DNA of 64,000 nt from Alphaproteobacteria bacterium MedPE-SWcel (GTDB taxonomy: Bacteria; Pseudomonadota; Alphaproteobacteria; Rhodobacterales; Rhodobacteraceae). The notes under the pieces were generated by a model. It was not told where the DNA came from, searched no databases, and saw only the letters and a program-made list of their open reading frames with translations. The stretch lies in NCBI GenBank assembly GCA_001874255.1, contig MPDC01000023.1, positions 1 through 64,000 on the forward strand, in the 5' to 3' direction. Each line of letters starts with the position of its first letter. Within the stretch, counting starts at the first letter, position 1. Position numbers and translations under genes: made by a program. This document shows, piece after piece, positions 21,103 to 57,872 of this stretch.

Positions 21103-21741
21103 ATGACACCGTCGTCGCCAAAACCTGCCCACATGCTCTTTGATCTGCAAGGATTGTTGTTCGGCATCCTCATGTGCAGTCTTGGCGTCGTGTTCCTGAA
21201 ATCCGCAGGCCTGGTGACGGGCCAGACGGCAGGCATGGCATTGCTGTTGTCCTACTTGCTGCCGCTTGAATTCGGGCCGTTGTTTTTTGCGATCGGCCTG
21301 CCTTTCCTGATACTCGCATGGACGAAACGCGGTGTCCGGTTTGCCTTGCGGACAGTCATGGTGGTGGTCGGAATTTCCGCAGGTGCTCAGATCCTGCCTC
21401 TGTTCATGAGTTTCGCGACACTGACCCCGAGCCTTGCCGCGATACTGGGCGGTGCCTGCAGCGGAGCCGGATTGATCGCGATCTTTCGCCATAATGCATC
21501 GGCGGGCGGGATGACCATTCTGGGCATTTTGATCGAGCAGCGAACCGGCTTCAAGGCTGGCTGGTTTCAGTTGCTGATTGATGCAGGCGTGTTTGCTGCT
21601 GCCGCGTTGGTGTTGTCGCCCGGGCAGCTGCTCTATTCCTTCATCGGTGCGATGATCACCAATCTGATCATCGTGTGGAACTTCGACGTGGCACAAAGCG
21701 GCACGGGGCGTCCGGGGTATGGCCGGTCGGCCCCCAAATAG
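21103..21741 (+). CDS. YitT-family membrane protein
   Basis: A 212-residue integral membrane protein with five to six hydrophobic segments and the YitT hallmarks GQTAGMALLLSYLL and NASAGGMTILGIL. The ATG at 21103 is preferred because GAGGATCTGAAA precedes it; an in-frame ATG at 21076 exists. The family's role is unclear; transport of small ions or amino acids has been proposed. Confidence 0.82.
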   Translation: MTPSSPKPAHMLFDLQGLLFGILMCSLGVVFLKSAGLVTGQTAGMALLLSYLLPLEFGPLFFAIGLPFLILAWTKRGVRFALRTVMVVVGISAGAQILPLFMSFATLTPSLAAILGGACSGAGLIAIFRHNASAGGMTILGILIEQRTGFKAGWFQLLIDAGVFAAAALVLSPGQLLYSFIGAMITNLIIVWNFDVAQSGTGRPGYGRSAPK

Positions 21742-21904
21742 GCGCGCGGCCGGCCGGGGCAATCAAACAGTCAGCCTGATGCCCTATATAGCTGATGCCC
21801 TGTATCAATGGTCGCAGACCACCCACGCCTCGGCCATGCCGGATGCTGGAGATCGCTTGGAAATGGGTATCGACAGCTCTGCGAATCTCGGCTAGCGTCC
21901 GCCC

Positions 21905-21982
21905 ATGACCCAACAGTATGTCCAGTTTTGGTATTACTTTTATCCGCGCCACATGGCGGACGGAGGGTTTTCTCGTTTCTGA
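21905..21982 (+). CDS. Aromatic-rich leader peptide of aroG (attenuator)
   Basis: A 25-codon frame, ATG to TGA, contains Y5, then the run VQFWYYFYP (residues 6-14: F8, W9, Y10, Y11, F12, Y13), and F22 and F25. Nine of 25 residues are Phe, Trp or Tyr. It ends 35 bases before a strong terminator hairpin and 110 bases before the aroG start. This is the textbook arrangement of ribosome-mediated attenuation by aromatic amino acids. Its own ribosome site is weak. The peptide is too short for ordinary gene calling. Confidence 0.8.
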   Translation: MTQQYVQFWYYFYPRHMADGGFSRF

Positions 21983-22017
21983 CACCGACTGACAGAAATA
22001 TCAGATGACTGCACCAG

Positions 22018-22043
22018 ACCGCCCCCGACCAGGGCGGTTTTTT
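22018..22043 (+). terminator. Attenuator terminator upstream of aroG
   Basis: ACCGCCC (22018-22024) pairs with GGGCGGT (22032-22038) around a 7-base loop and runs into six T. It lies inside the aroG leader, before the start codon, so it must be read through for expression. GGCGG at 21955-21959, near the end of the leader-peptide frame, could pair with CCGCC at 22019-22023 and break it (candidate antiterminator). Confidence 0.85.
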
Positions 22044-22091
22044 GTTTCCGGCCAGGTTCGACAGGGGCTCTTCTTCAAAAGGACCCGAACA

Positions 22092-23186
22092 ATGACCACC
22101 TCGCCTGCCCCCGCGACGACCGACCTCCGGATTACTGATATGCAAGAGCTGATCTGCCCCGATGCGCTTGCGGTGAAGCATCCGCTCACCGACAGGGCCC
22201 GCACGACAGTCCTGACTGCGCGCGCGCAGCTCCAGGGCATCCTGCAGGGGGCGGATGACAGGCTGGCCGTCGTTGTCGGCCCCTGTTCAATCCATGATCC
22301 CGAGGCGGCCATGGAATACGCACGCCGTCTGGCGCCTCTGCGCGCGGAACTGGCGGGGCAGCTTGAAATCGTGATGCGGGTCTATTTCGAGAAGCCCCGC
22401 ACGATTGCGGGCTGGAAGGGCCTGATCAATGATCCTGATCTTGACGGGTCATTCCGGATCAACAAGGGGCTGTCGGCGGCCCGCAGGCTGTGTCTTGAGT
22501 TGAACGAGACAGGCGTGCCGGTCGGCACCGAATTTCTGGACGCTTCGGTGCCGCAGTATCTGTCTGATCTGGTCAGCTGGGCAGCCATCGGAGCGAGAAC
22601 CACCGAAAGCCAGATACATCGCGAAATGGCGTCCGGGCTCAGTTGCCCGGTGGGGTTCAAGAATGGCACCCGCGGCAATGTTCAGATCGCGATTGATGCG
22701 GTGCGGTCTGCCGCTACGCCCCATCATTTCATGGCTCTGGCAAAATCCGGGCTGGCTGCGATTGCCGCAACCGCGGGCAATCCGGATTGCCATATTATCC
22801 TCCGGGGCGGTGGCGGAACAAATTATGATGCAGACAGCGTCGATGCCGCCTGCAAAATGGCCGAAGCTGACGGGCTCCGGCCTCAGGTGATGATCGATGC
22901 CAGTCACGCCAATTCCGCCAAGGATCCGGCGAGACAGGGAGAGGTTCTGAACGATGTCGGGCGCCAGATTGCCCAAGGCGAAACCCGGATCACAGGTGTG
23001 ATGATCGAAAGCCATCTCGTGCATGGTCGGCAGGACCTGCCAAAGGATGGAGACCTTGGAAAACTCACCTTCGGTCAGTCAGTTACCGATGGGTGCATCG
23101 GCTGGGAGGAAACAGAGACACAGCTTCGTGCCCTGGCACAGGCGATTGAAGACCGTCGAGCGGCCGCTCGCCAGCCTGCGGGATGA
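22092..23186 (+). CDS. aroG: 3-deoxy-7-phosphoheptulonate (DAHP) synthase, class I
   Basis: A 364-residue type I DAHP synthase, which condenses PEP and erythrose-4-phosphate at the entry to the shikimate pathway. VVVGPCSIHDPEAAMEYA, VMRVYFEKPRT, GFKNGTRGNV and MIDASHANSAKDP are family signatures and carry PEP- and metal-binding residues. The ATG at 22092 follows AAAAGGAC; an upstream reading from 22005 runs through the terminator and is rejected. The leader peptide and terminator indicate control by charged aromatic tRNA in addition to any allosteric feedback. Confidence 0.93.
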   Translation: MTTSPAPATTDLRITDMQELICPDALAVKHPLTDRARTTVLTARAQLQGILQGADDRLAVVVGPCSIHDPEAAMEYARRLAPLRAELAGQLEIVMRVYFEKPRTIAGWKGLINDPDLDGSFRINKGLSAARRLCLELNETGVPVGTEFLDASVPQYLSDLVSWAAIGARTTESQIHREMASGLSCPVGFKNGTRGNVQIAIDAVRSAATPHHFMALAKSGLAAIAATAGNPDCHIILRGGGGTNYDADSVDAACKMAEADGLRPQVMIDASHANSAKDPARQGEVLNDVGRQIAQGETRITGVMIESHLVHGRQDLPKDGDLGKLTFGQSVTDGCIGWEETETQLRALAQAIEDRRAAARQPAG

Positions 23187-56581: not shown

Positions 56582-56635
56582 CTCTACCGAGATATAGATT
56601 GACCGGACACACGGGTGCGCGTACTGCGGTCCGAC

Positions 56636-56684
56636 TGTCGCCACAACGGCTTCCTGGCGTGGCGGTTTAACCTGAATGGAGCAC
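56636..56684 (+). promoter_or_regulatory. SAM/SAH riboswitch of metK
   Basis: The stem CGCCAC (56639-56644)/GTGGCG (56659-56664) encloses the conserved AACGGCTTCCTGGC, and a downstream AATGGAGCA (56675-56683) follows after a short A/T-rich link. GGAG of that segment is the metK ribosome site and can pair with CTTCC of the loop to form a pseudoknot. Size and conserved core agree with the SAM/SAH riboswitch class, which sequesters the ribosome site on ligand binding. Confidence 0.9.
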
Positions 56685-56690
56685 TTTCTC

Positions 56691-57872
56691 ATGAGCCTCA
56701 AAGATTACACTTTCACCTCGGAGTCCGTTTCGGAAGGGCATCCTGACAAGGTCTGTGACCGGATATCGGATGCTGTCCTGGATGCGTTGATTGCCGAAGA
56801 ACCCGAAGCGCGCGTCGCTGCGGAAACCTTTGCCACCACCAACAGAGTGGTCATCGGGGGCGAAGTGGGCCTCTCTGATCAGGCCAAGTTGAAGGACTGC
56901 ATGGGCCGGATCGATGAAATCACTCGGGCCTGCATCAAGGATATCGGCTACGAGCAGGACAAGTTCCATCACGAGACGGTGGAGATCACCAACCTTCTTC
57001 ACGAGCAATCTGCCCATATCGCACAAGGTGTGGATGCAGATGGTGACAAGGACGAGGGCGCAGGCGACCAGGGTATCATGTTCGGTTTTGCCACCGACGA
57101 GACGGACGCAATGATGCCGGCTCCGATCCAGTACTCGCATGCAATTCTGCGTCGCCTGGCGGAGGTGCGTAAGAATGGTACGGAACCGGCATTGGGTCCG
57201 GATGCCAAGTCGCAGATCTCGGTTCGCTACGCAGATGACAAACCTGTTGAGGTCACCTCGCTCGTGCTGTCGACCCAGCACCTGGACGAAGCACTGACAT
57301 CGGCTGATATCCGCGCGATGGTAGAGCCTTACATCCGCGAGACTCTGCCTGACGGGTGGTTGACGGCCAAAACCGTCTGGCACGTCAACCCGACCGGGAA
57401 ATTCGTGATCGGTGGCCCCGATGGCGACGCCGGTCTGACCGGGCGAAAGATCATTGTCGATACCTATGGCGGTGCGGCTCCACACGGCGGCGGTGCGTTC
57501 TCGGGCAAGGATCCGACCAAGGTTGACCGCTCGGCGGCCTATGCGGCGCGCTATCTCGCAAAGAATATCGTGGCTGCAGGTCTCGCGCATAAATGTACCC
57601 TTCAGCTTTCATACGCAATTGGCGTGGCCGCGCCGTTGTCGATCTACGTCAATACCCATGGAACCGGTGCCGTGCCGGACCAGGTGATCGAAGGGGCCGT
57701 GAGCAAGTGCATGGATCTGACACCACGGGGCATCCGCACGCAATTGGGGCTCAACAAACCGATTTATCAGCGCACCGCAGCCTACGGCCATTTCGGCCGC
57801 GCCCCTGACGCAGACGGTGGGTTCTCTTGGGAGCGCACAGATCTGACAGAGGCACTAAAACAAGCCGTCTGA
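56691..57872 (+). CDS. metK: S-adenosylmethionine synthetase
   Basis: A 393-residue MetK that makes SAM from methionine and [33 protein letters not shown] and [19 protein letters not shown] are all present. The ATG at 56691 lies nine bases after the GGAG held by the riboswitch; an earlier ATG at 56676 lies inside the riboswitch and is rejected. Confidence 0.97.

Follow-up and report, generated by a model that had tools for sequence, protein, structure and literature searches.

The window considered here, by which we mean the whole 64,000-nucleotide stretch of DNA from Alphaproteobacteria bacterium MedPE-SWcel that was analysed, contains a gene for a type I 3-deoxy-7-phosphoheptulonate (DAHP) synthase, aroG, which is preceded by a short leader ORF and an intrinsic terminator, with a yitT-like gene upstream of the leader on the same strand (Table 1). 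DAHP synthase carries out the first step common to phenylalanine, tyrosine and tryptophan synthesis. An initial annotation of the region, made from the sequence, had proposed that these parts form an attenuator, and most of what it described is found as claimed. The downstream gene is indeed aroG, in that its product matches PF00793 and exceeds the TIGR00034 cut-off; it does not reach the threshold of NF006723, a stricter 'AroG' equivalog (507 vs 568 bits). The 25-codon frame encodes MTQQYVQFWYYFYPRHMADGGFSRF, with the nine Phe, Trp and Tyr residues that had been counted (Y5, F8, W9, Y10, Y11, F12, Y13, F22 and F25). Six of these had been placed within a stretch of seven codons; all six are present, but the run is denser than that, being six of six (F8-Y13). 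It is the only run of at least six aromatic codons in the six frames of the window, and no such run arose in 60 dinucleotide shuffles of the window or in 5000 shuffles of the 350-bp intergenic region.

The GC hairpin with six T that was said to lie before aroG is also there, at 22016-22040 with T at 22038-22043 and the aroG ATG at 22092, and places an intrinsic terminator between the leader ORF and the structural gene. The hairpin has nine pairs and a loop of seven (one found by the terminator scan vs a mean of 0.3 in shuffles), and within it CCGCC at 22019-22023 pairs with the GGCGG of the 3' arm at 22033-22037. A second GGCGG, at 21955-21959, had been suggested as a competitor of the terminator stem, and folding predicts exactly such a pairing with CCGCC 22019-22023. 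The fold of 21905-22044 as a whole is better than those of its shuffles (z -2.45; 2 of 200 shuffles equally good).

Table 1. Features of the aroG leader region, in window coordinates
Feature	Position	Strand	Basis or remark
Predicted promoter: -35 TCGACA (21870-21875), 17-nt spacer, -10 TAGCGT (21893-21898)	21870-21898	+	
Leader peptide ORF, 25 codons, ATG	21905-21982	+	Probably leaderless; 6 nt between -10 box and start; no Shine-Dalgarno
Putative sensor run F8-W9-Y10-Y11-F12-Y13	21926-21943	+	Unique in window, conserved, folding scan
Putative protector (1:2) hairpin UCCGCGCC-ACAU-GGCGGACGGA	21943-21964	+	MFE fold
Region 2, GGCGG, antiterminator 5' core	21955-21959	+	Predicted partner of region 3 once a stalled ribosome covers region 1
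Region 3, CCGCC	22019-22023	+	Predicted partner of region 2 (antiterminator) or region 4 (terminator)
Intrinsic terminator	22016-22043	+	Hairpin 22016-22040 overlapping T run 22038-22043
Shine-Dalgarno of aroG, AGGA	22080-22083	+	Sequence
aroG, type I DAHP synthase, 364 aa	22092-23186	+	Pfam PF00793, TIGR00034

An in-frame ATG at 22005, upstream of the aroG start, would give a product of 393 instead of 364 aa. It is an unlikely start because the frame would cross the terminator, and it could lead automatic gene callers to begin aroG within the attenuator. Elsewhere in the window, a SAM/SAH riboswitch (RF01727, 59.3 bits, above gathering) at 56635-56683 overlaps the start of a 398-codon ORF (56676-57872) which, by eye, looks like the methionine adenosyltransferase gene metK; a SAM/SAH riboswitch before metK is an ordinary arrangement in Rhodobacterales.

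Predicted promoter and start of the leader

Promoter-like pairs scoring at least 7/12 lie upstream of 25 of 27 Rhodobacterales leaders, 24 of them with a 17-nt spacer. The -10 box is TAGCGT in 21 Rhodobacterales leaders (16 were aligned) and ends 7 nt before the ATG in 22 and 6 nt before it in three, the window being one of the latter. The case for a promoter rests on this conservation, because a stricter sigma-70 scan (9/12) found none at the leader. A Shine-Dalgarno 4-mer was found before the leader ATG in none of 62 leaders; the corresponding control, positive in 27/27 aroG regions, is a weak one, the stretch searched there being much wider than for the leaders. With a -10 box only 6-7 nt before the ATG and no Shine-Dalgarno, the leader mRNA is therefore probably leaderless, starting at or beside the leader AUG. 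This reading is weaker outside Rhodobacterales, because there only 15 of 35 leaders reach a promoter score of 7/12, with -10 distances of 6 to 10 nt.

DAHP synthases of the family

Type I DAHP synthase is sparsely distributed: a protein search found it in 9 of 149 family genomes, and in a search of the class the TIGR00034 cut-off was exceeded in 8 of 289 genomes, both counts including the window's own. Type II DAHP synthase (PF01474) is present in all 16 family genomes tested, eight with and eight without type I, and is also carried by the window's own genome. When the region upstream of that type II gene was scanned for short ORFs in which three or more of seven codons are aromatic, the sole candidate was a TTG ORF, LWWPFALRSRRTA, some 500 nt away, which does not resemble the leader of aroG. 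Since the type II enzyme is universal in the tested genomes and, in the window's own genome, has no such leader, and type I is rarer, aroG looks like an accessory, switchable isoenzyme.

Occurrence of the leader across AroG loci

The best 80 of at least 584 AroG relatives were combined with nine loci from the family and, after removal of three duplicates, gave 86 distinct loci. A leader was scored where a terminator follows an ORF that has four or more aromatics within seven codons. In this set, drawn from the best 80 relatives and the family loci, the leader-terminator layout occurs at 63/86 loci and at all 28 of the Rhodobacterales clade. The 23 loci without it belong to Vibrio, Enterobacteriaceae, Motilimonas, Verrucomicrobiota, other gamma- and betaproteobacteria, a record titled as Melainabacteria, and two alphaproteobacteria. 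One of these two (L048) has no visible leader; the other (L039) has, by eye, a reduced FARYF leader (F, Y, F) that was scored as no leader. At one Rhodobacterales locus (L009) the automatic terminator pattern failed, and a leader was scored from a hairpin and T-rich tail seen by eye. Three further loci (L054, L080 and L084) have aromatic-looking ORFs without a terminator pattern and were scored as lacking a leader.

On the AroG tree the leader and no-leader labels, which were assigned by hand, need four changes, vs 20.5 for shuffled labels, and a single clade of 59 loci holds 58 leaders, L039 being the exception. Two records titled Nocardioides marinus and Mycobacterium sp. (L025 and L034) carry an alphaproteobacterial aroG and leader and group in this tree with Leisingera and Inquilinus; they are probably mislabelled or contaminated assemblies. 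A further seven alphaproteobacterial loci include five with a leader, one (L093) with an FY pair only, by eye, and one (L092) truncated where its contig ends. Of 16 genomes listed from two other families of the class, seven were examined, and all seven have the leader. Among the 30 top-scoring DAHP synthase loci from elsewhere in the phylum, outside this class, two (L152 and L157) combine an aromatic ORF and a T run. Their runs read LYFYFF and FDFFYFWF, and they may be aromatic attenuators outside the alphaproteobacteria.

The leader thus recurs in Rhodobacterales, Caulobacteraceae, Novosphingobium, Inquilinus, further alphaproteobacteria and Pseudoxanthomonas. Conservation of the frame in relatives had been set by the initial annotation as a test of its reading, and the frame passes it: frame, run, GGCGG, terminator and spacing all recur before aroG.

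A covariance model trained on 25 Rhodobacterales leaders matched in 9 of the 149 family genomes, eight times at aroG and once falsely, and in this family search it missed the divergent leader at L009 (genome G138). In a search of the order it matched 13 of 292 genomes, once each. Besides the window's own locus, 17 match loci were inspected, of which 16 lie upstream of aroG; two matches from the order search (G851 and G894) are outside these 17. The false match (L128, in G097) was rejected: the terminator there adjoins a tRNA-like stretch, and no aromatic leader is present. At 27 chosen loci outside the training set the model found 17/17 leaders (E <0.001) and gave no match at the 10 loci without one. 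It found no second copy of the leader in the window's own genome, where it gave one weak partial match (E 0.46).

Conservation of codons and of RNA

To tabulate codons we used 25 of the 28 Rhodobacterales loci, leaving out L009 and L010, which have another run order, and L020, a near-copy of L018. The alignment of related leaders for which the initial annotation had called bears out the conservation of aromatic codons: from one position before the tryptophan (W-1) to four after it (W+4), 138 of 150 cells are aromatic, and the tryptophan itself is kept in 25/25. At each of the four positions after W, phenylalanine and tyrosine exchange. The residue after the run is proline in 24 of the 25 leaders; further on, the encoded residues vary (R/S/G/C, M/T/K/Q, D/V/A), and the nucleotides GCC....GGCGG are identical in all 25, with a preceding CCG in 23. 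The F/Y swaps within the run, together with a varying peptide over kept RNA, therefore indicate selection on the run for its codons and on the sequence after it mainly at the RNA level. Three Phenylobacterium leaders (L041, L050 and L059) offer a natural test of this point. One extra base 3' of the run alters their downstream peptide and leaves much of the RNA in place: they carry GGCGGAGGAAGGGGATCG, close by eye to GGCGCCGGAAGGGGATCG of L079, with a spacing of 12 instead of 11 nt. The extra base, found in one clade, is probably a single event, and it points to a C-terminal peptide sequence that is not itself selected.

In a wider set of 75 leaders, four or more of eight codons are aromatic, with a mean of 5.6; phenylalanine and tyrosine occur in every run and tryptophan in 67, leaving eight without it. 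Some alphaproteobacterial leaders (L094, L095, L096, L098, L093 and L039) have no tryptophan in the run or only two to three aromatics left, and retain the RNA part and the terminator. For phenylalanine and tyrosine the run favours codons ending in U: TTT accounts for 35 of 56 Phe codons there (aroG genes, 15 of 134; four window genes, 26 of 68) and TAT for 53 of 57 Tyr codons (aroG genes, 55 of 123; four window genes, 17 of 32).

A ribosome extends about 11 nt beyond the codon in its A-site. In the leaders, the distance from the end of the last aromatic codon to GGCG is 11 nt in 47 of 65 entries, a count that includes duplicates and 21 entries whose scanned value of 14 was corrected by one codon; in the remainder the distance is 14 nt in six entries and 2 to 17 nt in the other 12.

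Predicted alternative RNA structures

Structural support was sought in 55 leaders (40-48 distinct, depending on the part) by exchanging the two halves of each element between leaders. Own halves fold better than swapped ones for both the terminator and the antiterminator, with none of 2000 permutations as good in either case. For the protector hairpin, whose putative role would be to free the terminator once the leader has been fully translated, own arms match no better than swapped ones (280/2000 permutations as good); the segment itself reaches -4 kcal/mol or below in 55/55 leaders, with a mean of -9.8 vs -5.8 when shuffled. Because the leaders are related, the values from permutation and Fisher tests should not be read as true probabilities. 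The GGCGG/CCGCC antiterminator is lengthened in many leaders by extra GG/CC pairs (19 leaders shown). Within the 25 Rhodobacterales leaders the core shows no covariation because it never varies, an invariance that is as expected for bases with alternative partners, and alifold, applied to 49 antiterminator sequences, recovered a four-pair core with no compensatory pair. Changes on both sides of a pair are seen at two terminator pairs (four cells) and one protector pair (one cell). Some of the 'broken' protector pairs resemble a one-base register shift, as in the folds of L028, L030 and L033.

Folding was then modelled with a ribosome on the leader, using 62 leaders for a comparison of three states, and 23 core and 30 other leaders for a codon-by-codon scan. 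Loci without a located terminator and duplicates were dropped from these sets, and divergent leaders also from the scan and permutation sets. In the window the modelled antiterminator probability is 0.96 with the A-site at F12 or Y13; it is 0.59-0.62 at F8-Y11, near the value of 0.57 without a ribosome, 0.59 at P14 and R15, 0.34 at H16, and no higher than 0.16 between codon 17 and the stop codon (0.15 at the stop itself). The proposed alternative pairings, for which a folding check had been suggested, are thus borne out by the model, 0.96 at F12/Y13 standing against 0.16 or less from codon 17. Over the 23 core leaders the mean lies at 0.88-0.96 for A-sites from W to W+3, drops to 0.70 at W+4 and does not exceed 0.34 from W+5 onwards; with the ribosome at W itself the mean is 0.88, and the value exceeds 0.5 in 22 of the 23. 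Shuffling the spacer and region 2 lowers the stalled-state probability from 0.99 to 0.33. In silico, then, a ribosome waiting at codons for the pathway products favours an antiterminator that excludes the terminator.

Across all lineages the stalled state favours the antiterminator (>0.5) in 62/62 leaders. It is still favoured in 33 of the 62 with the ribosome at the stop codon and in 39 without a ribosome, so that the equilibrium model lends better support to the stalled than to the released state.

A model for control of aroG

From the observed parts, their conservation, their spacing and the modelled pairing we infer a start site, ribosome stalling, termination and an amino-acid response as follows. 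RNA polymerase would start at or beside the leader AUG, as the promoter position suggests, and a ribosome would translate the leader during transcription. When charged aromatic tRNAs are scarce, the ribosome would wait within F8-Y13, its leading edge covering the 5' side of the protector and so leaving GGCGG 21955-21959 free. This GGCGG could then pair with CCGCC 22019-22023 before the 3' arm of the terminator exists, giving readthrough into aroG. With charged aromatic tRNAs available the ribosome would proceed over or past region 2, whereupon CCGCC would pair with GGCGG 22033-22037 and transcription would stop at the T run. On comparative grounds we consider it very likely that the aroG leader is a ribosome-mediated transcription attenuator of this kind. 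The initial proposal of an attenuator is supported by the layout at 63/86 AroG loci, the antiterminator that folding predicts and an aromatic run unique in the window; six consecutive, conserved aromatic codons make this a leader ORF rich in codons for the products of the pathway.

Two accounts that dispense with sensing of tRNA charging have to be weighed against this attenuator. The well-kept order of the run in most Rhodobacterales, with its tryptophan in 25/25 leaders and the proline after it in 24/25, might reflect a TnaC-like nascent-peptide arrest, in which FWYxFYP would stall the ribosome on a free aromatic amino acid or another signal and not through scarcity of tRNA. We regard this as very improbable: F and Y swap, the order of the run differs by lineage (FWYYFY, FYFWYYF, YFWYFSF, SFYWFR), tryptophan is missing from 8 of 75 runs, U-ending codons are enriched, and conservation 3' of the run tracks the RNA more than the peptide. 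Slighter still are the chances that the terminator merely ends yitT transcription or yields a small RNA, with an aroG promoter downstream of it. The yitT-like gene upstream does lie on the same strand, and a short terminated RNA is expected anyway, but the conserved promoter sits 5' of the leader, the sequence upstream of the leader varies among relatives (by eye) whereas leader, terminator and aroG stay together, and the aromatic run would be left unexplained.

How the three amino acids are weighted is a question within the attenuator reading. That one leader senses all three, as initially suggested, is plausible, and in the window species the folding scan predicts that Phe and Tyr at codons 12-13 would weigh most. 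The leader might even be a Phe/Tyr attenuator in effect, with tryptophan and the early codons kept for other reasons and only Phe/Tyr starvation opening aroG, a sub-case to which we give appreciable credit while doubting it on balance. It would fit the window values at F12/Y13 (0.96) as against F8-Y11 (0.59-0.62), and the presence of Phe and Tyr in all 75 runs and of Trp in 67; a further point in its favour is that the aroR leader of C. glutamicum is reportedly responsive to Phe only (PMC11802643). Against it, tryptophan is invariant in the 25 Rhodobacterales leaders, and a stall at W gives a mean of 0.88, with 22 of 23 core leaders above 0.5. A bolder version of the attenuator, in which one leaderless RNA integrates three tRNAs, so that shortage of Phe, Tyr or Trp alone would open aroG, and the RNA of about 139 nt and the peptide set free under aromatic plenty would also act in trans, like rnTrpL and peTrpL of S. 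meliloti, we think unlikely.

Relationship to known attenuators and RNA families

The kind of mechanism proposed is a known one. In the pheL and trpL leaders of Escherichia coli a leader ORF, alternative hairpins and a terminator serve a single amino acid and other genes. The aroG leader shares leader ORF, alternative hairpins and terminator with the Phe leader family (Rfam RF01859), and differs from it in that the latter concerns a single amino acid and other genes. Membership of that family was rejected, the full-length window match reaching 27.3 bits vs a gathering threshold of 55; at 16 other chosen loci, 14 of them leader-bearing, no Phe_leader match was found up to E 1. No gathering-level Rfam match was found in the region, and none of the sub-threshold matches of 21700-22200 is to a riboswitch or T-box.

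Attenuation of DAHP synthase transcription by an aromatic-codon leader peptide also has a precedent in C. glutamicum aroR-aroF, an attenuator reportedly described by Neshat et al. in 2014. Its leader contains Phe-Tyr-Phe, and its reported response is to Phe only (PMC11802643; PMC4046766). Like aroR, the present leader is an aromatic leader before a DAHP synthase gene; in contrast to aroR, leaders of the window type have at least four of eight codons aromatic, mostly include tryptophan and occur in Pseudomonadota. The likeness to the aroR type concerns the way in which the aroG leader would work. The DAHP synthase gene aroF of Acholeplasma is likewise preceded by a short ORF with one or more Phe codons, uORFC-13-1, and by a terminator stem, for which the mechanism is its authors' proposal. 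This ORF differs in being confined to Acholeplasma and unassigned environmental sequences, and in having a ribosome-binding site and at least one Phe (PMC8632094). Sinorhizobium meliloti trpL is likewise an alphaproteobacterial attenuator with a leaderless leader ORF, its rnTrpL transcript starting at the AUG, which for aroG is a prediction. It differs in sensing Trp only, in controlling trpE(G) and in the trans-acting functions reported for its RNA and peptide (PMC7298713, PMC10117765). No description of an alphaproteobacterial aroG attenuator was found in the literature searched, and an earlier prediction may exist in the 2004 survey of attenuators in proteobacteria by Vitreschak et al. The aroG leader is accordingly a well-conserved new case of a mechanism of known kind, represented by trpL and pheL, with precedent for DAHP synthases.

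Implications

With this reading, the accessory DAHP synthase found in Rhodobacterales, other alphaproteobacteria and Pseudoxanthomonas gains a regulatory logic. The natural variants of the leader, with or without tryptophan, with a changed frame or with reduced runs, allow one to ask which codon positions of an attenuator count, and the mixed run allows one to ask whether a single leader may combine three amino acids in the manner of an OR gate.
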